A stretch of 64,000 nt of DNA. Origin: Colwellia sp. PAMC 20917 (GTDB lineage Bacteria; Pseudomonadota; Gammaproteobacteria; Enterobacterales; Alteromonadaceae). Of this stretch, positions 2,896-29,127 are shown piece by piece (positions within the stretch are counted from its first letter, which is position 1; each line of letters starts with the position of its first letter). The notes under the pieces are model-generated. The model was given only the letters and a program-made list of their open reading frames with translations. It made no database searches and was not told the DNA's origin. The DNA is taken from the NCBI RefSeq assembly GCF_001767295.1, contig NZ_CP014944.1, positions 2,232,001-2,296,000 on the forward strand, written 5' to 3'. Both the position numbers and the translations under genes were made by a program.

Positions 2896-4257
2896 CTAAG
2901 CAGAAAGACTGGCCAATAACTTAGAGAATGCTTGTTCGGACTCTTGCTCTAGGCGATGAACACCGACGTTAATCACCCAGTGGCCATTGACCATAACGTC
3001 GTTAATCATATTATGCTGACTTGCAAAAATCATACTGTCTAATAAGTGTTGGTCGTGGTGAGCAAACAAAGCCACTTTTTTGGCATTAAGTACCAGTAAA
3101 TCGGCTTGTTTACCTATCGCTAACTCACCGGTATTGCTATTTGTACTTTGAGCGCCGCCTAAGGCTGCTTGTTGCCACAAATTACGACCCACTGAAGGTT
3201 GATTTTCTGTTGCTAAAATAGCACGTTGTTGCTTAATTAAGCGTTGTGCGTATTCTAACCAGCGTAACTCTTCGATAGGATTCACTGAAATATGACTGTC
3301 AGAGCCAATGGCTAAGGTGCCATTTTCTGCTAAAAATTCACTGGTGGGGAAAATACCGTCACCTAGATTTGCTTCAGTGGTTGGGCAAATCCCTGCAACC
3401 GCTTTACTGGCAATAATTCCTTGGCGTTCTTGTTCATTGATATGTGTCGCATGAATTAAACACCATTGTGGGTCTAATGTGACATTATTTAATAACCATT
3501 CCACCGGACGTTGACCATAATGCGCTAAACAATCATTGACTTCTTTTTGCTGCTCAGCGATATGAATATGCACTGGCGCTTTATTATCTAAACTACGGAC
3601 ATGTTTTACCGCTTGCTCTAACGACGTTTTGTCAACCGCTCTTAATGAGTGAGGCGCAATGCCAACATTAGTATTTTGATAATGAGTACTTAAGGTAAAG
3701 CAGTCACTGACCAGTTGATTGAATTGTTCTACTGAATTAATAAAGCGCTTTTGGCCGTCATTTGCCGGTAAAGGACCAAAGCCGCTGAAACGATAAAGTA
3801 CCGGTAATAATGTTAAACCAATTCCCGATTCCTGACTGGCCTTAAAAATGGCTTTTGCCATGGCAGCAAGTTCATCATGGTTTTCACCATTAATTTCATG
3901 ATGTAAATAATGAAATTCTGCAACACGGGTATAACCCATTTTAAGCATTTCAATATAAAGCTGTCGGGCAATTATTTCGGCATCGTTTACCGTCAGTTGA
4001 TCGATAAACTTGTACATGATGCTGCGCCATGTCCAAAAACTGTCTTGCCCTTCACTACCTTGTTCACTGAAACCCGCAAAGGCACGTTGAAAAGCATGGG
4101 AGTGGCAATTAACCATACCAGGAATAACAACCCCTACTCGCTCAGCGCCGTCAATATGGCCTGATGCTATTGCGGTGATCACACCATTTTCTATGGTTAA
4201 TGTTTGCTGCGTATGCCAACCGCTGCTTAATAAAATACGTTCTGCAAATAACTTCAT
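2896..4257 (-). CDS. hutF: Formimidoylglutamate deiminase
   Basis: Hydrolyses N-formimidoyl-L-glutamate to N-formyl-L-glutamate and ammonia, the fourth step of the five-step histidine degradation route. It is a cytosolic amidohydrolase-superfamily zinc enzyme. Visible metal and substrate motifs are NCHSHAFQRAFAG near the N-terminus, HSLRAV and HIHIAEQ in the middle, and GSDSHIS near the end. The longest frame starts at GTG 4266, but ATG 4257 sits eight bases after AAAGG and gives MKLFAERI (453 aa), which fits the family. It lies downstream of hutG on the same strand with a 130-base gap, so the two probably form one operon. Formate and glutamate would follow from HutG. Confidence 0.95.
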   Translation of the reverse strand: MKLFAERILLSSGWHTQQTLTIENGVITAIASGHIDGAERVGVVIPGMVNCHSHAFQRAFAGFSEQGSEGQDSFWTWRSIMYKFIDQLTVNDAEIIARQLYIEMLKMGYTRVAEFHYLHHEINGENHDELAAMAKAIFKASQESGIGLTLLPVLYRFSGFGPLPANDGQKRFINSVEQFNQLVSDCFTLSTHYQNTNVGIAPHSLRAVDKTSLEQAVKHVRSLDNKAPVHIHIAEQQKEVNDCLAHYGQRPVEWLLNNVTLDPQWCLIHATHINEQERQGIIASKAVAGICPTTEANLGDGIFPTSEFLAENGTLAIGSDSHISVNPIEELRWLEYAQRLIKQQRAILATENQPSVGRNLWQQAALGGAQSTNSNTGELAIGKQADLLVLNAKKVALFAHHDQHLLDSMIFASQHNMINDVMVNGHWVINVGVHRLEQESEQAFSKLLASLSA

Positions 4258-19809: not shown

Positions 19810-19886
19810 GGTGGCTATAGCTCAGTTGGTAGAGCCCCGGATTGTGATTCCGGTTGTCGAGGGTTCAAGTCCCTTTAGCCACCCCA
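19810..19886 (+). tRNA. tRNA-His (anticodon GTG)
   Basis: Complete cloverleaf. G-1 at 19810 pairs with C at 19883 (histidine identity). The acceptor stem is GTGGCTA/TAGCCAC, the D arm AGCTCAGTTGGTAGAGC, the anticodon GTG at 19844-19846 in a CCGGA/TCCGG stem, and the T arm GAGGGTTCAAGTCCCTT; CCA is encoded (19884-19886). The 3' half is the attachment site of the island that follows. Confidence 0.97.
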
Positions 19887-19950
19887 TTCTTTCCTTAGTA
19901 AATTCAGCAAGTTAAAACATTATAATAGCTATATCATTTCTATTTCATTA

Positions 19951-20066
19951 AGTGCTCCTGTCCATATTCTGTGAGTATTTGAAGCTAATTAGGTCTAATT
20001 ACTTACACAACTATCCAACTTCCAGCTCATATCCTCAACATCGACCGGAACTGATTAACTTTGCCT
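19951..20066 (+). repeat. Island left-end repeat, copy 1
   Basis: Starts AGTGCTCCTGT and ends CTGATTAACTTTGCCT; roughly 80-85% identical by eye to 27486-27600. Each copy lies shortly after a tRNA-His 3' end, as expected of the attachment-proximal end of related elements. The whole stretch 19887-20395 has no convincing gene. Confidence 0.8.
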
Positions 20067-20395
20067 GTTTAAGGAATTTACTGTCTATTTCCTGTGCTAT
20101 TTACTGAAAATTGAAAATATCGTTTCTAACTAAGACGTCTCGAAAGTGCGCATTGCTGACTTTAGTGATAAATATTTTGCAATATATTTTCTAATGAATA
20201 ATCCACGCCATTTACTTTAACGTGTCCATAATGTGTTATGCATTTCTTATCATACAGAATTAACTATTACTTAATAAAGGCAATAATCTTTAGTTTCTAA
20301 AAATGTTTCAATTCCATATATATTTGTGTATATTCCTTCCTGAATTACCTTAGTATTTAATTTGCTAAGTTTTTAGTTAATGTGAAAGGATTCAT

Positions 20396-20536
20396 ATGAA
20401 AGAACAACTCAACCTATTATTACAAAAATATGCAGGGTTATTATCTGCTATACCCCCATGTGATATTCGAAACTCTTTTGAAAATCCTGTCCAAAAAACT
20501 AAACACCTAAGTAGCTTTAATATTTTCTTAACCTGA
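20396..20536 (+). CDS. Possible 46-aa protein or truncated gene start
   Basis: ATG 20396 has AAAGGA five to six bases upstream and opens a 46-codon frame beginning MKEQLNLLLQKYAGLLSAIP and ending in TGA at 20536. The good ribosome site suggests a translated start, but the short frame ending in low-complexity sequence suggests the remains of a longer gene. No family is recognised. The 208 bases between it and the BIG2 gene hold nothing clear. Confidence 0.4.
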   Translation: MKEQLNLLLQKYAGLLSAIPPCDIRNSFENPVQKTKHLSSFNIFLT

Positions 20537-20744
20537 TATATTCCTAAATAATCTCTTATAAATGGTCAGAACTCTGATTGTATTGGGATTGCTGGTTATT
20601 ATCAAAATGGACTGAGATAACACTTAATTTACATATTGATTTATTCAGAAAAAAAGTTAGCAATATACCCCTGTGTAAGAAAATGGAATCGATGTTCACG
20701 TAAACATGGACATTAAAATAAAAATAAAAAATGGAGTTTAAATA

Positions 20745-23273
20745 ATGAAAATAATAAATATTTTCTTCTTTTCTTTTGTTCTACTGTTAACCGGTTGTGG
20801 TGGTAGTGGTGATAAAGTATCCCTAAGTAAACTTGAAATCAGTACTAATACCCAATTACTCGATTATCAAGAGACAACCCAACTCAGTGTACTAGCTATT
20901 AACTCAGATGATAGCTTGGAAAGCCTTATTTCAGGTGTAACTTTTTCATCGACTAATAATGATATTTTATCTATTTCAAATACTGGCTTAATAACCGCTA
21001 TATCGGAAGGCGAAGCATCAGTCACTGCCAGCTATCAAGGTAAAGAAAGCTCTATTTCTATCGATGTTACCTATTCAATAATCAATAGTGAAATTAGAAT
21101 AGATCCAGAACCTGATAATATGATTGAGGGTACTAATTACCAATCCAATTTATGGGTAATAAAAACTGATGGTCTTTCATACTTAATAAATGAGGATGTC
21201 TTATGGTTAAGTAGTGATGAGACGTTAGCAGAAATTTCTAGTGAAGGTTTACTGGCGTTGCTTAACTCTGGTGATGTATATATTGAAGCTACCTTTGGTG
21301 ATATAAATATTCAGCGCCTTGTTAGTATTCAAGCAAAGGAAATAAGCGAGATTGCTATTGAACTTTCACCAGCACAAGTTGCTTTAGGTTACCAATCAAA
21401 TGCCATAGTAACTGTCATATATAATAATGGTAGCTCTGAGAATTTAACTACAAGTGCAACACTTTCTAGTGGTGACTCATCTGTAGCGACTATCAATGAA
21501 GATGGAGTTGTTTCTTCATTGGCTGTTGGTGTAACAGTTTTAAATGCCGAATTTAGTGGTTTTACTAGTAGTGTAAATTTTGAAGTAACCGATGCCGTTA
21601 TAACTCAGTTATTATTTAATATTGTACAAAATTCTATGCCTGTTGGTATGACTCCTTTATATGTTGTTAAACAACAATTTTCAGATGGTTCATTAATTGA
21701 TATTACTCTTGAGCATCAGATTTATACTTTATCTTCGGAAGATTTAAATTTTGCTTCTATTGATAATTATGTAATTACGACTGTTAGTCCCGGAAGTGTA
21801 AACTTGACAGTAACTGCTGGAAATCTACAAACATCAACTCTTTTAACAATATCGGAAGCCGTTGTAACAGATATTGCGCTTTCAACGAATACTTTGTCTT
21901 TAGCCTTGGGGTTATCTGGTGAAGTATCGACAACAGCTACACTCTCTTCAGGTAGTCAAATATCAATTGATCCAGTGTACTCTTCTTCCGATGAAACTGT
22001 TTTGATAGTTAATCAAACTGGTTTAATTACTGCTTCTGGAATTGGGCAAGCGATAGTAACAGCCCAATATAATAATATACAGGACACTATTACTATTGAT
22101 GTTAATCCCGCAGCTCTGGCCTCTTTAAATGTTAGTTTTGAAATACTAACTCTACCAATAGGTCGAAAAACACAGGCAAGTGCGACTGGCAATTTTACTG
22201 ATGGAACAAGCTCTAATATTACACAAGATGTTAGCTGGAGTAGCTCTACTCCTAATTTATTGTCGGTAAGTAATACTGTTAAAGGGGAGGTTACGGCTAT
22301 TATTGGTAGTAGTATCGACGTATCTTCTCCAGTTACTGTTCTTATAACTGCTTCATTAAACGGAATTGAGAATAATGCTGGGCTTGATGTGGTTTCAGCA
22401 GTTGTTGATGCCTTAAGCGTAGATGCAGGATCAAGCCTTGCATCATTAGGCAATCAATTACAGTTAACAGCTACTGCAACTTATTCAAATTTAGAAGATA
22501 TCGATGTTTCTAATGATGCTATATGGTTATCAAGTGATGAAACCGTAGCAACAGTTAGTAGTAATGGTTTGTTATCAACAATAGCAGAAGGAGTAATATC
22601 TGTTTCTGCAACTTTTGATGGATATGTTCAATCTTTTGAAGTAACTGTTGGTCCAGCAACGTTAGATTCTGTCACCATAAGCACAACTAGTTTGTCTATT
22701 TACAAAGGACGAGTAAAACAGCTTAACGCTATAGGGACCATGAGTGATGGTAGCGAAATAACAGTTACAAAACTAGGTTTTTGGAGTGTTGATAATAGCA
22801 ACTTAGCTACCGTATCAAATGATAGTGGCAGTGAAGGTGTTTTTACTGCTATTGAAGATGGAAATGTCAATATTACCTTCACTCCACATGAACAATCGTT
22901 ACCTCCGACAGGAATCTTTCAAAGTATTAAACCAATTAGCGAAATGACTAACGAATTTAGTAAATCAGTTAGTTCCTCTATGTCGGTAATAAATGGTGTT
23001 GTACAAAATGGTTCTAAAATATCATTAACTATTACAAACAATACAGGCGAAACGGTTAGTTTACTTAAGTTTAAAGTAGATGATGCCAATGGAGAGAAAG
23101 TATCAACAAGTGATGCAAGTTTACTAAGTGATGGCTCCCTCACCAGTGGCGAAAGCGTTGGTCTGACTTACACTGTTAATTACCTAGGAGCAACAAAACC
23201 AATTACGCTAACTTATGAGGTAGAAGATCCTGTAACTAACGAAACATTTAATGTTTCAAGTACAATAAACTAA
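20745..23273 (+). CDS. BIG2 (bacterial Ig-like) repeat lipoprotein
   Basis: 842-residue predicted lipoprotein: signal peptide with lipobox LLLTGCGG (Cys about 18), then about eight tandem Ig-like group 2 domains of 80-90 residues. Each ends with the pattern V.....G.I.AIS.G.A.VTA.Y.G, for example SNTGLITAISEGEASVTASY and SSNGLLSTIAEGVISVSATF. A different C-terminal domain (about 735-842) lacks that pattern. Probably exposed at the cell surface; adhesion or matrix binding is typical for such proteins but not shown. GGAG lies nine bases before the ATG. Codon use is rich in TCT/AGT Ser and ACT Thr, unlike the core genes. At 2.5 kb it is far larger than a usual integron cassette. Confidence 0.88.
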   Translation: MKIINIFFFSFVLLLTGCGGSGDKVSLSKLEISTNTQLLDYQETTQLSVLAINSDDSLESLISGVTFSSTNNDILSISNTGLITAISEGEASVTASYQGKESSISIDVTYSIINSEIRIDPEPDNMIEGTNYQSNLWVIKTDGLSYLINEDVLWLSSDETLAEISSEGLLALLNSGDVYIEATFGDINIQRLVSIQAKEISEIAIELSPAQVALGYQSNAIVTVIYNNGSSENLTTSATLSSGDSSVATINEDGVVSSLAVGVTVLNAEFSGFTSSVNFEVTDAVITQLLFNIVQNSMPVGMTPLYVVKQQFSDGSLIDITLEHQIYTLSSEDLNFASIDNYVITTVSPGSVNLTVTAGNLQTSTLLTISEAVVTDIALSTNTLSLALGLSGEVSTTATLSSGSQISIDPVYSSSDETVLIVNQTGLITASGIGQAIVTAQYNNIQDTITIDVNPAALASLNVSFEILTLPIGRKTQASATGNFTDGTSSNITQDVSWSSSTPNLLSVSNTVKGEVTAIIGSSIDVSSPVTVLITASLNGIENNAGLDVVSAVVDALSVDAGSSLASLGNQLQLTATATYSNLEDIDVSNDAIWLSSDETVATVSSNGLLSTIAEGVISVSATFDGYVQSFEVTVGPATLDSVTISTTSLSIYKGRVKQLNAIGTMSDGSEITVTKLGFWSVDNSNLATVSNDSGSEGVFTAIEDGNVNITFTPHEQSLPPTGIFQSIKPISEMTNEFSKSVSSSMSVINGVVQNGSKISLTITNNTGETVSLLKFKVDDANGEKVSTSDASLLSDGSLTSGESVGLTYTVNYLGATKPITLTYEVEDPVTNETFNVSSTIN

Positions 23274-23655
23274 CAGCCTGTAAGTTTTTGTAATTTTGTA
23301 TAGTAAAGCCTCTCTTCCTTTTAGGGAGGCTTATAACAACAATAAATATATAGCTGATTACTTTTCTATGAAATTAGATATAATCAAAACCAACAACCAA
23401 TTGTGAATAGACATTACAAATGAGATTATCTCAACAAGCCTGTCCACTGAAATCACACATCCATGAGATGATGTTTTCGAACTAAATCGATTTTTAGTCA
23501 TCGAGTTGAGATTCGCTTATAAGTTGTCGAGACAGAAAGATATTAATGATCACTTTGTGCGCAAACCGGAAATTAGCTTAAAAATTTTTCCCATATTTTT
23601 TCCATATATTTTCTAATAAATTATTCGAGTCATATTACTGAAAGGTAACTATAAG

Positions 23656-23771
23656 AATATTTTATATGTCGCCACTTATTCAAATTAATATTTTTAGAAA
23701 TAAGTACTTAAACTGTAGGTTTGTGCTTGTTTTTATTGGTTTTTGTGGTAACTTTAGCGACATATAATATT
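23656..23771. repeat. Long inverted repeat in the gene-free stretch
   Basis: AATATTTTATATGTCGC (23656-23672) and GCGACATATAATATT (23757-23771) pair except for two extra bases, with 84 bases between. It lies in the 713-base stretch 23274-23986 that has no credible gene (only a 33-codon frame from ATG 23667, without a ribosome site). It could be a small MITE-like insertion or a worn cassette end. Just after the BIG2 stop, CCTCTCTTCCTTTTAGGGAGGC (23311-23332) could be a weak terminator. Confidence 0.4.
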
Positions 23772-23986
23772 TTGTACTTTTGGTTACACAGTTTTCGCCT
23801 AAATGGATTTAGTGCACATAGCTCAACTCCCTCTAGGTTTTATAAATTCTGCTTATGTTTTCGCTAAGTCAGTTTTGTATAAACGGCTCAAATTCACGGT
23901 TAGCAGTAAAGTGGCGATAAGGTTTTAATTTTACTCACTCCACACTATCAGCTTTAACACTTTTGACCATTTCAGTGTTTTCCATT

Positions 23987-24085
23987 ACGCAACATATCAA
24001 GTCAATTAAACGAGACATAGCAGTTGGCTAGTTTCGCTACACATTTTAGCCAACTATCACTTAGTCGCTTAATGTGGCGTTAGGT
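23987..24085 (+). repeat. attC site 1 of integron cassette array
   Basis: The right core GTTAGGT (24079-24085) matches GTTRRRY exactly. The left core ACGCAAC (23987-23993) differs from RYYYAAC in one base. The centre has perfect arms TAGTTGGCTA/TAGCCAACTA, and GCTTAATGTGGCGTTAGG resembles the usual attC 3' half. 99 bases long, marking the upstream edge of the DUF4282 cassette. (attC1 arms: AGTTGGCTA 24022-24030.). Confidence 0.75.
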
Positions 24086-24155
24086 TTTTAACAACTCCGC
24101 TAGCCTAGCGTATATTTATATCGGAGTTATTTATAATAATAAAAAGGATTTACCC

Positions 24156-24404
24156 ATGAAAGATGTGTTTTTTTTCGACTCAATGTTAACCCCTAAAATC
24201 ATTACTTTTGTTTACTGGCTTATGCTTTTAGGCTCTTTAGTTTCAGGTTTAGGAACAATGTTCACTCAATATGGCGGCGGTGTTTTAGCTGGTTTAGGTA
24301 TAATTGTTGGGGGCGCTATTGGTTCAAGAATTTGGTGTGAGCTACTGATTGTTTTATTCAAAATTCATGAAAACTTGCAAAAAATAGCTAACAAATCAGA
24401 ATAA
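24156..24404 (+). CDS. DUF4282 small membrane protein (cassette gene)
   Basis: 82 residues with the DUF4282 pattern: FFDSMLTPKIITFVYWL at the start, a glycine-rich second span, and GSRIWCELLIVLFKIHENL near the end. Two membrane spans are likely. AAGGA lies eight bases before the ATG. The gene sits alone between attC1 and attC2, in the layout of a one-gene integron cassette. Function of the family is unknown; a homologous chromosomal gene may exist elsewhere. Confidence 0.85.
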   Translation: MKDVFFFDSMLTPKIITFVYWLMLLGSLVSGLGTMFTQYGGGVLAGLGIIVGGAIGSRIWCELLIVLFKIHENLQKIANKSE

Positions 24405-24406
24405 AA

Positions 24407-24507
24407 GCCTACAAGTCATTCAAGCAGGACTTTTAACAGTTGGTTAGGTTCCGCTTCACCTCACATTTTAACCAATAATTAAAAGCCTCTTAATGGGGCG
24501 GTTGTGC
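24407..24507 (+). repeat. attC site 2
   Basis: Follows the DUF4282 stop by two bases. Left core GCCTACA (24407-24413, one shift from GCCTAAC), then TCATTCAAGCAGGAC. Central arms are TTGGTTA/TAACCAA, with outer arms GGACTTTTAA/TTAAAAGCC. CTTAATGGGGCG follows, then right core GTTGTGC (24501-24507, six of seven). Length 101 bases. Confidence 0.8.
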
Positions 24508-24562
24508 TTTGCCGATAGAATACTTAACCTGCTTACGAATATTAACCTGATAAAGGCACTAC

Positions 24563-25171
24563 ATGCTTAGAGTTATAACGATTGAGAAAGGTCAAAATGC
24601 CGATGTATCAGGCATTTTAACAGGTGATCTTTTATTAAAATATGATGGTATTACTACAAATAATAAAGATGATTTACTTGAGCTAATTTCCAGAGCAAAT
24701 GAACGTATCTTAACAAAAAAGATAACGGTTGAAATTAATAGGGAAGATATATTAATTGTTATGAAGGTACGCTCAGGTAAGTTAGGACTAACGCTTAAAC
24801 CTGAGAATGTCGAAATTAACCAGCAAGTTAATGGTAACGATTCTCTAGATAAAGCAAATTCAACTATTAGACTAGCAAATCAAAGAGTTTCAGAGTTGAA
24901 ACATCAGATAAAAGAGAGGGATATGAATATCTTACACCTTCAAACTGAGAACATTAGACTTAAAGGTGAGGTGAAAGCTGATTTCTTAGGGTTCTCTGAT
25001 TTTTCTGATCATGCAATTTTTGGCGTATCTGAACTTTCTAGTTTTGATGCTATTAAGAAAAATTACAAAAAACTTTCAATGGTCTATCATCCTGACAGAG
25101 GCGGAGATCCCCATATGATGAAACTTATCAACTCTACTTTTGAACGATTAAAGTCTGATAATAGCGTATAA
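24563..25171 (+). CDS. PDZ-like, coiled-coil and J-domain protein (cassette gene)
   Basis: 202 residues. Residues 1-85 look like a PDZ fold (ITIEKGQNADVSGILTGDLL, LLKYDGITTNN). Residues about 98-140 form a coiled coil (LANQRVSELKHQIKERDMN). Residues about 150-202 form a C-terminal J domain with the HPD tripeptide in MVYHPDRGGD, the residues that stimulate Hsp70 ATPase. No signal peptide or span, so it is cytosolic. AAAGG lies seven bases before the ATG. It is the only gene between attC2 and attC3. Inference: a client-binding module that recruits DnaK. I do not know a named family with this order. Confidence 0.85.
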   Translation: MLRVITIEKGQNADVSGILTGDLLLKYDGITTNNKDDLLELISRANERILTKKITVEINREDILIVMKVRSGKLGLTLKPENVEINQQVNGNDSLDKANSTIRLANQRVSELKHQIKERDMNILHLQTENIRLKGEVKADFLGFSDFSDHAIFGVSELSSFDAIKKNYKKLSMVYHPDRGGDPHMMKLINSTFERLKSDNSV

Positions 25172-25262
25172 CAAGATACTAAGGTTGCAATAGAGAATTT
25201 GTTTAGGCTCTTACCTCGCCAATTTTAACAAACTGTATTTAGCCTCTTACGTGGCGTTGGTA
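25166..25262 (+). repeat. attC site 3
   Basis: The left core GTATAAC (25166-25172, six of seven) overlaps the stop codon of the J-domain gene. Central arms TTTGTT/AACAAA are followed by GCCTCTTACGTGGC and the right core GTTGGTA (25256-25262). The final GGCGTTGGTATGAT is almost the same as in attC4, supporting a shared origin. Confidence 0.7.
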
Positions 25263-25277
25263 TGATTAAAGGAAGTT

Positions 25278-25850
25278 ATGAGTTTATTTTACAAATTAAA
25301 ATCTAAAGCTGTAATAAACAGAAAGCATGAGGAACATTTATATGCTTTAGTCGCATCTGAAATGGCTGATGGTATTCGTAACTCCGCTCTATGGCTAAAA
25401 GCCATAGAAGCAGCTAATGGAAATAGTGAAAAACAAATTTCAGAATATATAAAGTTCAGAGTGCAATCATTAAAAGATGATATTCATATTGTTAACAGCG
25501 TCTCAGTTGAAGAACCTGTACAGTTAGAAAAGGCGTGTTGGAAAGATATTGATGATGTAGAAGATTTAGTGATGATGATAGAAGATGGTGCTTCAAAATT
25601 AGATATTTCAAATTCGTTATCAGGTAAGCCTGACAGCGAAGTCGAATTATTAATAAACCAATTTGATGCCTGTGAACAATATCCACTTCATGTTGCTGTA
25701 AAAAATAAAAGAGCCGATATAGTTGAATGGTTACTTGAATTAGGTGCGCAACAAAATAGCGTAAATGATTGGGGGAAAACCCCTATTGATATAGCTATTA
25801 AGCAAGAGAATAATGAGATAATAAAGATAATCGAGTCATATATCACTTAA
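25278..25850 (+). CDS. Ankyrin repeat protein (cassette gene)
   Basis: 190 residues. The N-terminal 120 residues are helical with no recognised domain. The C-terminal part has two ankyrin repeats (YPLHVAVKNKRADIVEWLLE, GAQQNSVNDWGKTPIDIAIK). AAAGGAAGTT precedes the ATG. No signal peptide. The stop codon overlaps attC4, the tight packing usual for cassette genes. Partner proteins are unknown; an immunity or inhibitor role, known for some ankyrin proteins, would be speculation. Confidence 0.8.
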   Translation: MSLFYKLKSKAVINRKHEEHLYALVASEMADGIRNSALWLKAIEAANGNSEKQISEYIKFRVQSLKDDIHIVNSVSVEEPVQLEKACWKDIDDVEDLVMMIEDGASKLDISNSLSGKPDSEVELLINQFDACEQYPLHVAVKNKRADIVEWLLELGAQQNSVNDWGKTPIDIAIKQENNEIIKIIESYIT

Positions 25851-25947
25851 CACATAAGCACTTCAAGCGGGATTGTACAGTTTGCTCGGTTTCGTTGAGC
25901 TACACATTTTAGCAAACAATTATCAGCTCTTTAAATGGGCGTTGGTA
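25845..25947 (+). repeat. attC site 4
   Basis: The best of the four: left core ACTTAAC (25845-25851) fits RYYYAAC perfectly, then CACTTCAAGCGGGATTGTAC. Central arms TTTGCT/AGCAAA surround a 28-base loop region, followed by AGCTCTTTAAATGGGC and right core GTTGGTA (25941-25947). Length 103 bases. Confidence 0.82.
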
Positions 25948-26074
25948 TGATACAAAAACTAATGTAAGTTCCATTCTATTAATTGGACGCTAATGTCATC
26001 AGTGTGGCATAAGTGATCGTTACGAATGTAAAAAAAAGGAGAATTAAAATTTTTATAAAACATAACGTCCAAAC

Positions 26075-26121
26075 GCCCAACATGCCCATTTAAAAGAATT
26101 GGCTAACAAATAAAGTTAACC
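26075..26121 (-). repeat. Worn attC-like site in reverse orientation
   Basis: Read on the minus strand it ends TTTTAAATGGGCATGTTGGGC, with right core GTTGGGC (perfect GTTRRRY), preceded by GTTAGCCAATT as in attC sites. The left core GGTTAAC fits six of seven. It follows the minus-strand 44-aa gene, as an attC should follow its cassette gene. Shorter and less symmetrical than sites 1-4, so uncertain. Confidence 0.4.
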
Positions 26122-26137
26122 TGCATTTTTTATTTAA

Positions 26138-26272
26138 TTAATCATCCAAGATAAAACCAACAATACCACCGATGGCTGCACCAATTACTATGCCTTGTGG
26201 GCCCAATCGTGCGCCTATCAATGCACCAGTCGTTGCCCCTTTCATAGCGCTATCTGAAAAGTTGTTACTCAT
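26138..26272 (-). CDS. 44-aa glycine-zipper membrane peptide
   Basis: A complete minus-strand frame from ATG 26272 to TAA 26138, encoding MSNNFSDSAMKGATTGALIG followed by a glycine-rich hydrophobic stretch and ending FILDD. Glycines every three to four residues (GALIGARLG, GIVIGAAIGGIVG) mark a glycine zipper, typical of helix-packing membrane peptides. AGGGA lies nine bases upstream of the ATG. It would be the gene of an inverted cassette. A type I toxin-like peptide or a small membrane protein are both possible. Confidence 0.6.
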   Translation of the reverse strand: MSNNFSDSAMKGATTGALIGARLGPQGIVIGAAIGGIVGFILDD

Positions 26273-26303
26273 TAATTATTTCCCTTAGTTTTTTGTAGTT
26301 CAT

Positions 26304-26336
26304 ACTGACAGCCAAATATTTAATTCGTCTGTCAGT
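26304..26336. promoter_or_regulatory. Perfect inverted repeat upstream of the 44-aa gene
   Basis: ACTGACAG and CTGTCAGT with a 17-base AT-rich spacer, about 30 bases upstream of the 44-aa gene on the minus strand. It could be an operator or the stem of a transcript. The stretch 26337-26637 has no gene; it includes GGGCATGACCCCGTTGGGC (ending 26528), which looks like a stray attC right end. Confidence 0.35.
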
Positions 26337-26637
26337 GAAGTGTGTTTTAGGTAAGTAAGTCATTACACTTTAAATTTAATGGCGTAATGTCCACTGAGTT
26401 TTGATGGTGTATTTGCTTTAGCTAGCCCCTGTTTATAAAAGGGTTATTTGCTCCAAATAAGGAGAGTCAAAATTCATAACTACCATAATTATTTTAAATT
26501 TAACGATAAGGGCATGACCCCGTTGGGCGTTCCGTTCTAAATAATTTTTTTACAGCTTTTATTACCAAGCTTACATGGATAAATATTAACAGGTGCTATA
26601 AACTGGTGTTAATAAACATAGTTATTGGGATATTCGA

Positions 26638-26904
26638 ATGCAACCAAAATTCTCAGAAGATGTCGTGCCCTTATCGGATCTTAAAATTAATCCAGGTAAG
26701 ATAGTTAATCATGCTAAAGATTCTCATAGACCAATACTAGTCACTAGCCGTGGACGAGGTATTGCTGTAGTTCAAGGCTTAGACGACTATGAAAAAAGTA
26801 TCGAAGAGCTTGCTTTCATAAAAGCTGTTGCCAAAGGCATGCTTGATATTAAAGAAGGAAATAAATCGGATATCAGTGATGTAAAAGCAAGGTTAGGTTT
26901 GTAG
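26638..26904 (+). CDS. Phd/YefM-type antitoxin
   Basis: 88 residues. The N-terminal DNA-binding fold of the Phd/YefM family is visible (VVPLSDLKINPGKIVNHAKD, RPILVTSRGRGIAVVQGLDD), and the C-terminal tail is the expected toxin-wrapping part. It neutralises the toxin encoded two bases downstream and normally represses its own operon. It lies at the right end of the island, where such pairs help keep the DNA in the population. Confidence 0.9.
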   Translation: MQPKFSEDVVPLSDLKINPGKIVNHAKDSHRPILVTSRGRGIAVVQGLDDYEKSIEELAFIKAVAKGMLDIKEGNKSDISDVKARLGL

Positions 26905-26906
26905 TT

Positions 26907-27203
26907 GTGAAAATTGAATTTGCAGAATCTGCTATTTGTGATCTAGAAGATATCAAGACATATTATGATGAGCAGCATGTTCAAGATGTTGGTAATAATT
27001 TTATTTTAGACATAATAAGCCATATAGAACAATTACCCGACAATCCAAAAATTGGCAGAAAAGTTCCTGAATTTTGCATGTCATCAATTAGAGAATTAAT
27101 TCACCCGCCTTTTCGTATTGTGTATGTATTAAATGAAATAAGCATTCAAATTATTAGAGTCTGGCGAAGCGAAAGATTAATGCATTTACCGTTGAATTAT
27201 TGA
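26907..27203 (+). CDS. ParE/RelE-family toxin
   Basis: 98 residues with the ParE/RelE pattern: FAESAICDLEDIKTYYDEQ at the N-terminus, LPDNPKIGRKVPEF and IRELIHPPFRIVYVLN in the middle, and the closing IIRVWRSERL. It starts at GTG, two bases after the antitoxin stop, so translation is coupled. ParE members poison DNA gyrase and RelE members cleave mRNA; this one looks closer to ParE, but the target is not settled by sequence. The frame is full length. Confidence 0.9.
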   Translation: MKIEFAESAICDLEDIKTYYDEQHVQDVGNNFILDIISHIEQLPDNPKIGRKVPEFCMSSIRELIHPPFRIVYVLNEISIQIIRVWRSERLMHLPLNY

Positions 27204-27289
27204 GTGAAAAATAATGCTCTGGTATCGATCTGTGAGTATGTAACGGCAATAAATCACGTTAAACTAAGTAAATCTTATACCGACAACTT

Positions 27290-27336
27290 GATTGTGATTC
27301 CAGTTGTCGAAGGTTCAAGTCCCTTTAGCCACCCCA
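27290..27336 (+). repeat. Copy of tRNA-His 3' part (island attachment site)
   Basis: 45 of 47 bases equal tRNA-His 19840-19886, from the anticodon stem to CCA. The 5' half of the tRNA is absent, so it is not a gene. The core is flanked by perfect arms CGACAACT (27281-27288) and AGTTGTCG (27302-27309), as for an integrase site with the crossover in the anticodon loop. Confidence 0.85.
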
Positions 27337-27342
27337 CTCTTT

Positions 27343-27423
27343 ATAAGTTTATCTCAAATAGAACACATCCATCAGTGATTCCATTTTCGCTTACCGTGGG
27401 TTCAAGTCCCTTTAGCCACCCCA
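27343..27423 (+). repeat. Island right-end repeat with tRNA tail, copy 1
   Basis: ATAAGTTTATCTCAAA, then CATCAGTGATTCCATTTTCG and CTTACCGTG, followed by 26 bases identical to the tRNA-His 3' end (27398-27423). Copies 2 and 3 lie at 28842 and 28960. The reading frame that runs across 27204-27437 only translates these repeats. Confidence 0.8.
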
Positions 27424-27485
27424 TTCTTACCCTTTAGATTCAAAGCCTATGGGTAATCATCTACTATAATTAGCACTTTCTGATG

Positions 27486-27600
27486 AGTGCTCCTGTGTAT
27501 ATTCTGTAAATATTTGAAACCATTACGTCTAATTACTTACACCATTATCAAACTTCTAGCTCATATTCTCAACATCGACCAGAACTGATTAACTTTGCCT
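27486..27600 (+). repeat. Island left-end repeat, copy 2
   Basis: About 80-85% identical by eye to 19951-20066 and placed at a similar distance after a tRNA tail (63 bases here). It marks the start of a second, related element. Confidence 0.8.
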
Positions 27601-27757
27601 TGTAAAGTACAATTATTGACTAGGAGAAAAAGCGTAAAAAGAGCAGCTGCATATTCCTTTTGCTCTGAATAAGTCAGTCAATTATCTAACACTTTGTAGT
27701 AATATTTAATCTTGATTAACGATAGAGAGGAGTAATTTGTTAATCGATAAGAATTAG

Positions 27758-27871
27758 AATTTTCAAAGTGCATTTGATGCCATCAATAGTGTTTATTATC
27801 CCAGTGGAGTACAAAGTGGACCTCAGCGTAATAGACAGATTGAAGTTTGGGGGCGATTAGTAGGTATGTAG
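27758..27871 (+). pseudogene. Possible 3' remnant of a lost gene
   Basis: A 37-codon open stretch without its own start, bounded by TAG upstream and TAG at 27869. The peptide (FDAINSVYYPSGVQSGPQRN, then RQIEVWGRLVGM) has protein-like composition. No family is assigned. Otherwise 27601-28085 holds no gene. Confidence 0.25.
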
Positions 27872-28085
27872 TTGCAACTATCAATAAATAGCCAGACCAT
27901 AACCTGTTAGCTGTTTATAGCTCAGTCACACAATTACCTATATTCATTAAACATGTAACCTAATATTACTTGACCACTGCAAATGTTTTGTCTATATTTA
28001 TTTGGTATAAATTATAAGTTAAGTAATTGAAAAGTTATTAAATAAATATTTATTAACGTACTTTAAAACTCACAAGGAAAGATAA

Positions 28086-28352
28086 ATGAGTGACGTAATT
28101 CAGCAAGCAAGACTACAGAACACCATGAAAAACCCTATTGTCGCATTAGTTTTAGGTTTTTTTATTCCAGGGGCAGGTCAAATGTATGCAGGAAATGTAA
28201 TGTGGGGAGTTATTAATCTCATCCTAGTTATAGTACTTGCAGTAACCATTATCGCCTCACCTTTAGCTTTCATTATATGGTTAGTGTCAATGTTTCTTGG
28301 CTATAAAGGAGTAAAATCTTTTAATGTCAAGGTTTTGGATAACGCTGAATAG
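28086..28352 (+). CDS. TM2-domain-like small membrane protein
   Basis: 88 residues with two membrane spans: NPIVALVLGFFIPGAGQMYAG is the TM2 signature (hydrophobic, proline-glycine turn, G..Y.G), then GVINLILVIVLAVTIIASPL, and a possible third hydrophobic stretch (FIIWLVSMFLGY). AAGGA lies seven bases before the ATG. Its role is unknown. It is the only clear gene of the second element. Confidence 0.78.
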   Translation: MSDVIQQARLQNTMKNPIVALVLGFFIPGAGQMYAGNVMWGVINLILVIVLAVTIIASPLAFIIWLVSMFLGYKGVKSFNVKVLDNAE

Positions 28353-28463
28353 ATAAGGAAATAACACACTATTTTAAGACAGACTAGCCTTCTTGATACA
28401 CGATTGTTAGTAATTTAAGATTTAGGGCTAATAAAGCGTTAGTTATTAATAAAATAGGTTTTT

Positions 28464-28500
28464 AAATGACACTTTCGGGTGTCATTTCTGCTTTTTATTT
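28464..28500 (+). terminator. Terminator after the TM2-like gene
   Basis: AAATGACAC and GTGTCATTT with loop TTTCGG, followed by CTGCTTTTTATTT. A strong stem and U-tract, 112 bases after the stop. It overlaps the end of the minus-strand 101-codon frame. Confidence 0.75.
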
Positions 28501-28787
28501 ATAATCTTTATAACGTTAATTAAGTTTATCGAAACTAAAGATTGGTACGGATATCGCGCGTTTAGTTTTGATAATGCCTGCATATCACCTGAAACCACAT
28601 AATCATAGTAACCCATAGAGCGCATTTTATGAGCCTGGCGATGTTTTAATGTCATGTTTTCGAAGCGTAATAACTCACTAGCATTATCACGAAATAAGCA
28701 GTAAAAGTCACTGCCATCTAGTCGCATGGTTAAATTTTGTCGATAACGTGGTGATAAAAGTGATACAGAATTAGATATGGAGCACAT
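28482..28787 (-). CDS. Hypothetical protein, 101 aa
   Basis: Frame from ATG 28787 to a stop at 28482, rich in Arg, Leu and Tyr (SVSLLSPRYRQNLTMRLDGS, HKMRSMGYYDYVVSGD). No domain, span or signal is recognised and there is no clear ribosome site. Its end overlaps the terminator of the opposite gene. It could be a real island gene or the remains of one. Confidence 0.4.
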   Translation of the reverse strand: MCSISNSVSLLSPRYRQNLTMRLDGSDFYCLFRDNASELLRFENMTLKHRQAHKMRSMGYYDYVVSGDMQALSKLNARYPYQSLVSINLINVIKIINKKQK

Positions 28788-28841
28788 AACAGGAACAATG
28801 AGCTACCTTATGTCACATACTTCTGGTGTTGCTGTAACATT

Positions 28842-28924
28842 ATAAGTTTATCTCAAAGAGAACACACATCCATCAGTGGTTCCATTTTCGTTTATCGTCA
28901 ATTAAACTCCCTTTAGCCACCCCA
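28842..28924 (+). repeat. Island right-end repeat with tRNA tail, copy 2
   Basis: TATAAGTTTATCTCAAA, CATCAGTGGTTCCATTTTCG, then a shortened tRNA tail CTCCCTTTAGCCACCCCA (28907-28924). It closes the second element. Confidence 0.75.
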
Positions 28925-28959
28925 TTTGTATAAACACACCTCTAAAATATTAAATAAAG

Positions 28960-29006
28960 CCATCAGTGATACGATTTTCGCTTACCGTGGCTTCAAGTCC
29001 GTTTAG
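28960..29006 (+). repeat. Island right-end repeat, degenerate copy 3
   Basis: CCATCAGTGAT, GATTTTCGCTTACCGTGG, CTTCAAGTCCGTTTAG: same order as copy 1, but the tRNA tail is broken after TTTAG. The 340-base stretch 28788-29127 has only these repeats and the marR promoter region. Confidence 0.65.
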
Positions 29007-29127
29007 TTATAGGACTTTATAAATTTCTCTTTAAAACCATCTAATAACGCCTATTTAGGTAATTTATCTAGGTGTTGCTGATTTTTTTGATTAAACTAAT
29101 AGTAATTAAAGTAAGAAGCACACTGTA

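Follow-up and report, generated by a model that had tools for sequence, protein, structure and literature searches.

A cluster of four attC sites on the chromosome of Colwellia sp. PAMC 20917 is, in our judgement, probably a decayed integron platform without an integrase, belonging to a family found across Colwellia and its close relatives, whose members are likely intI-loss derivatives that would be filled with cassettes in trans. The DNA analyzed, here called the window, is a stretch of 64,000 nucleotides corresponding to positions 2232001-2296000 of the complete 4.68-Mb chromosome. A previous inspection of this DNA (the sequence-only reading) had taken the array for gene cassettes without an integrase, the layout known as a CALIN. 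This is formally right, no intI being near, but the genome does encode an IntI and the array possesses conserved ends as well as a remnant of an attI site; because of these outer ends and this remnant we consider it an integrase-less integron unit and not a stray attC cluster (Table 1).

Table 1. Features of the array and its surroundings, numbered from the first letter of the window.
Feature	Position	Strand	Evidence and remarks
Second left end with attI-like stretch	20146..20232	+	Other-genome profile, E 3e-15; upstream of 842-aa Ig-like gene
Left end of unit (GTGCGC...ATTAGC...CCATATATTTTCTAAT...)	23557..23654	+	nhmmer, other-genome profile, E 5.3e-14; alignment
Putative degenerate attI remnant	23636..23665	+	Aligned to attI consensus; among the best of 25,582 window positions
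First cassette	23666..23991	+	Flanked by attI remnant and attC site 1; no clear gene, all ORFs short; inferred borders
attC site 1	23992..24087	+	R1, 57.4 bits
DUF4282 membrane protein gene, 82 aa, cassette	24156..24404	+	Pfam PF14110, E 1.2e-15
attC site 2	24406..24508	+	R1, 84.7 bits; R'' box complements own cassette start, rank 1 of 47
PDZ-like and J-domain protein gene, 202 aa, cassette	24563..25171	+	Pfam DnaJ, E 3.3e-8
attC site 3	25166..25264	+	R1, 36.7 bits; weakest of the four
Ankyrin-repeat protein gene, 190 aa, cassette	25278..25850	+	Pfam Ank_5, E 1.1e-10
attC site 4	25849..25949	+	R1, 61.6 bits
Right end of unit	25949..26023	+	nhmmer, other-genome profile, E 1.5e-9; directly past crossover point of site 4

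attC sites and gene cassettes of the window

The four repeats, proposed as attC-like sites in the sequence-only reading, are confirmed as genuine integron recombination sites. All of them lie on the plus strand inside 2 kb and were matched at 36.7-84.7 bits by R1, a covariance model trained on 11 attC sites of the same genome, all of them outside the window, compared with 20 bits for the next best match in the 64 kb. R1 also picks up the VCR-type sites that flank a DUF4282 gene on both sides in an integron of Vibrio sp. HDW18, and thus behaves as a general attC model. When the sites were folded singly as DNA, sites 1 and 2 beat their shuffled versions while sites 3 and 4 did not; site 4 shares 88% identity with one attC of the intI array. 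An Rfam scan of the window gave the tRNA only.

The alternation of sites with single plus-strand genes was borne out as well, three genes standing between the four sites in the order site 1, DUF4282 gene, site 2, PDZ and J-domain gene, site 3, ankyrin gene, site 4; the two stop codons said to overlap left cores are those of the last two genes, which overlap sites 3 and 4, respectively. The gene flanked by attC sites in Vibrio sp. HDW18 is a homologue of the DUF4282 gene of the window and a cassette there. In the 202-aa protein the PDZ_6 match reaches 24.5 bits, slightly below the Pfam cut-off, and no full-length homologue of this protein was found in 99 related genomes. A search for defence genes among the cassette genes returned nothing except a generic ankyrin match. 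The first cassette of the window would be decayed or ORF-less.

Genome-wide, the 5' start of a cassette matches the R'' box in the attC that follows it with a mean of 12.6, vs 9.0 +/- 0.33 for shuffled partners (47 neighbouring pairs; 0 of 300 shuffles as good). The three window genes differ in this respect: the DUF4282 cassette ranks 1 among the 47, the ankyrin cassette 19 and the PDZ and J-domain cassette 23, and the unremarkable ranks of the last two fit decay or later rejoining. Core mismatches at sites 2 and 3 had been taken as a sign of age; site 3 is indeed weak, but site 2 scores best of the four, and decay was overstated there.

Conserved ends and the attI site

The stretch behind the last attC is common to several arrays, and R2, a sequence model of this right end, matches mostly at array ends, both here and in relatives; in the window it gives 64.6 bits at 25944-26022, the window being one of its six training sequences. 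The end profiles used with nhmmer were trained on other genomes only, with reversed sequence as control. At E<1e-3 they recovered nine left and ten right ends in the examined regions of this genome and 0 in reversed sequence. The left end, of the form GTGCGC...GACATTAGC...CCATATATTTTCTAATGAAT, and the right end stand on their proper sides and strand in the window, and at least four units (this one and those at 2873-2875, 3723-3725 and 4280-4283 kb) are bounded correctly by both; within the examined regions, one or both ends are missing from about half of the arrays of this genome. A second left end lies further upstream in the window, with no attC behind it before 23992. The 842-aa gene behind that end (20146-23273 together) encodes a lipoprotein-like product with bacterial Ig-like (Big_2) domains.

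An exact pattern of the right end occurs in 52 copies in public species genomes, nearly all of them in Colwellia or Alteromonadaceae records, and 30 of the 52 abut an attC, a proportion to be read knowing that the pattern covers the last three attC bases, which favours attC-abutting copies, and not the other hundred. Neither the left module in plasmids nor the exact right-end pattern in viral contigs was found, and the attI pattern described below occurs in one virus-labelled contig (L265).

Compared as inverted repeats, the left and right ends show a moderate likeness, agreeing at 18 of 22 consensus positions, which 9 of 1000 shuffles equalled. Three other identities were tried for these sequences and rejected: for the right end, a 3' attI half shared with integrons of other genera (a single weak match among 29 intI loci) or a cassette 5' start (no R'' box matches), and for the left side, inverted right-end copies, where the test with the right-end profile was not significant at the window and the left end proved to be a motif of its own. 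The left-end consensus starts with (G)GTGCGCATT, which we take to resemble one arm of the chromosomal dif site; Xer recombination might conceivably move the units.

Behind the left ends stands the sequence ATTACTGAGAAGTCTCCATAATAAGCTG^TT, which in this genome also separates intI from the cassettes behind it (L010:16599). Sister units are laid out as left end, attI, cassettes and right end. In other loci there are 45 fuzzy matches to the attI pattern, part of which are palindromic sister copies upstream of attI; 35 of the 45 lie within 600 bases behind a left end, and reversed controls gave 0. The attI and the left ends were studied mostly in loci chosen by the right-end pattern. If this sequence is an attI, the first cassette has to begin at G^TT and to match the first attC at its R'' box; the 28 cases average 17.6, vs 10.8 +/- 0.57 when partners were shuffled (0 of 1000 as good). 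In the longer units the control region of intI can be aligned with the stretch from left end to attI, a stretch that measures about 66, 160-180 or 275 bases in many integrase-less units. No empty unit, with left end, attI and right end and no cassette (...CATAATAAGCTG^TTATCGATACAAAATCTAATCC...), was seen in the loci examined.

As for the window itself, the best complement of the R'' box of site 1 lands on the putative attI remnant. This attI is too degenerate to prove its identity alone; its counterparts in sister units are intact.

A distant integrase and the origin of the units

The absence of an integron integrase noted by the sequence-only reading holds, no TIGR02249 match being present in the window, and the genome search that it proposed for intI and additional arrays turned up both. 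The nearest full-length integron integrase, 2.0 Mb away, is an IntI without internal stops encoded at 4265343-4266284 (TIGR02249, 415 bits; cut-off 265) with a cassette array behind it, and R1 finds about 70 attC-like sites in some 20 places on the chromosome, counts that rest on model searches. Among 99 genomes searched, 65 have an intI above cut-off. Another genome of the genus (G005) has at least 67 attC matches and no IntI match at E 1e-60; attC arrays may outlive the integrase there.

Two Colwellia loci, L211 and L229, carry a truncated intI whose 3' end runs straight into a left end; the truncated genes show 76 and 85% identity, respectively, with the IntI of this genome. This arrangement suggests that an integron bounded in the same way gave rise to the integrase-less units by deletion. 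The unit at 2873-2875 kb, beside tuf, is absent at the same place in one relative (G004), and another (G001) has a unit there in the opposite orientation. Neither a transposase nor a clean target duplication was found for the units, and the one empty site seen lies in a repeat-rich terminator region, where its borders are not sharp.

The plan of such a platform would be a conserved left end, an attI, cassettes with their attC sites, and a right end beginning at the crossover point, most likely derived from an integron with the same ends by losing intI. It is known that the partners recombined by IntI are either a folded bottom-strand attC and a double-stranded attI or a pair of attC sites (PMC11023631), and a review-style statement holds that a functional IntI can mobilise CALINs in trans (PMC12444791). 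IntI made from the single locus at 4.265 Mb would accordingly pair folded attC sites with the attI of a unit, or with another attC, and one IntI together with many attI-bearing units could insert, excise and exchange cassettes at any unit; we infer this action in trans, as well as the mode in which the units spread. In the window copy a good attI and two of the cassette matches are gone, and with regard to insertion this copy is therefore probably a fossil: new insertion at its attI would be off, and excision of single cassettes might persist. A farther-reaching proposal, which we hold tentatively and at slightly less than an even chance, is that the units are non-autonomous mobile elements, bearing attI and lacking an integrase, which multiplied over the chromosome and are served in trans by one IntI as a distributed network of docking sites.

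Degradation of integrons, off-target insertion and rearrangement have been put forward as sources of CALINs (PMC9024848, PMC8618304), and three alternatives of these kinds were weighed against the platform reading. The first, which we regard as unlikely for the window, is that the distant IntI put cassettes singly into non-classical attG sites, leaving a CALIN with arbitrary flanks. An intact IntI gene and similar attC sites are available in the genome, some arrays here show no conserved ends, and such insertion is described for E. coli (Loot et al. 2024, cited in PMC12444791); however, attG insertion predicts neither the two conserved ends and attI remnant of the window nor the attI found at the predicted spot in sister units. 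More improbable still is that one large chromosomal integron was split into these arrays by rearrangements between insertion sequences: rearrangement is one proposed origin of CALINs (PMC8618304) and IS91-like and other many-copy elements do lie inside arrays, but a broken-off piece can keep no more than one of the original ends, at odds with the units bounded on both sides, and attI occurs many times. Least probable of all is that every unit descends from a complete integron through loss of intI at its own locus, none of the derivatives having multiplied, as the truncated intI at the left end of two loci could indicate, since the few shared spacings between left end and attI fit the copying of deleted forms better than many separate deletions.

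The platform reading also sets the units apart from the systems that they resemble. A CALIN has at least two attC sites with cassettes and no intI near (IntegronFinder, PMC9024848), and CALINs are about equal in number to complete integrons (PMC9024848); they are defined by absence, however, whereas a Colwellia unit possesses fixed ends together with an attI, or attI remnant, of its own. From a complete integron the window array differs by having no adjoining intI. IntI, attI, cognate attC sites and an orientation that mostly follows replication are shared with sedentary chromosomal integrons such as that of Vibrio cholerae, although here one intI locus goes with many platforms scattered on the chromosome. 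MITE-flanked and Tn402-like class 1 integrons contain intI and occur in mobile contexts. The Colwellia units, in contrast, are without intI, exist in many chromosomal copies and have ends that are only weakly inverted repeats, their transposition being hypothetical; the likeness is that of an integron forming a unit between end sequences (for MITE-flanked integrons, Gillings et al. 2009, reference in PMC8618304). With attG insertions (Loot et al. 2024) the units share the presence of cassettes outside the intI locus. Neither attI nor conserved flanks are expected in attG insertions; both are present in Colwellia units, the attI as a putative remnant in the window.

The open-access literature searched on Colwellia integrons, attI in CALINs and MITE-like integrons reports no such units, which is weak evidence of novelty. 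Dedicated integrase-less platforms would add a further origin of CALINs beside off-target insertion, intI loss and rearrangement. If they exist as proposed, surveys based only on attC and intI overlook them, and a genome may offer far more than one docking site for cassettes.

tRNA-His context and neighbouring elements

The array had also been described as nested in a tRNA-His element. Duplicated 3' ends of the tRNA-His do flank the region: the tRNA gene occupies 19811-19886, partial copies of its 3' end are found at 27276-27338 and 27363-27425, on the far side of the region, and another at 28864-28926. The tRNA does not define the unit, however, because the locus is variable in relatives and units of the same type lie at other places. 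The stretch from tRNA-His to the MarR/BCCT genes differs between relatives: G001 has ABC-transporter and efflux-type genes and no attC there, and in G004 the DUF1285 and BCCT genes are about 80 kb apart. The tRNA-His site of the window array is a variable hotspot. As to an integrase of the element's own next to the tRNA, the window has no tyrosine recombinase of the TIGR02249 type, and none was detected among the subset of its proteins that was scanned. An 86-base repeat (19988-20073 and 27522-27607) is 88% identical between its two copies; together with the tRNA-His 3'-end copies (19811-29016) it represents what is left of elements that targeted the tRNA in tandem.

By hand count, 16 of 20 attC clusters of the genome are co-oriented with replication (binomial P 0.006; dnaA at 2.425 Mb, terminus assumed opposite), the window unit being among the minority that run against it. 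Three near-identical attC sites at 1179871, 2920903 and 3872979 of G000:C1 are each followed by the same gene start, which presumably belongs to mscL, and by a right end about 1.1 kb downstream; this is a duplicated unit.

Other elements were observed in or beside the arrays. One set of observations comes from L010:16599-18990, L012 (attC at 3916, 6858, 8771, 10708 and 14976), L069:3037, L070:3514, L077:6033 and 9120, and L080:7570: an IS91-family transposase is paired with a Xer-like tyrosine recombinase beside attI and attC sites, eight identical copies of a sequence starting ACTCCCCACGTCAAG come immediately behind the crossover box of an attC, and the same GAGCGGCTTCGTTC end precedes four attC sites. 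These may be insertion sequences for which attC is the target or which move as cassettes. Near the intI array and a MerR-type regulator, a class D beta-lactamase-like gene (L011:8390-9172) scores 222 bits against an NCBIfam cut-off of 250, slightly below it. In the window, a gene pair for a Phd/YefM antitoxin and a ParE toxin occupies 26638-27203, between the array and the tRNA-His repeat.
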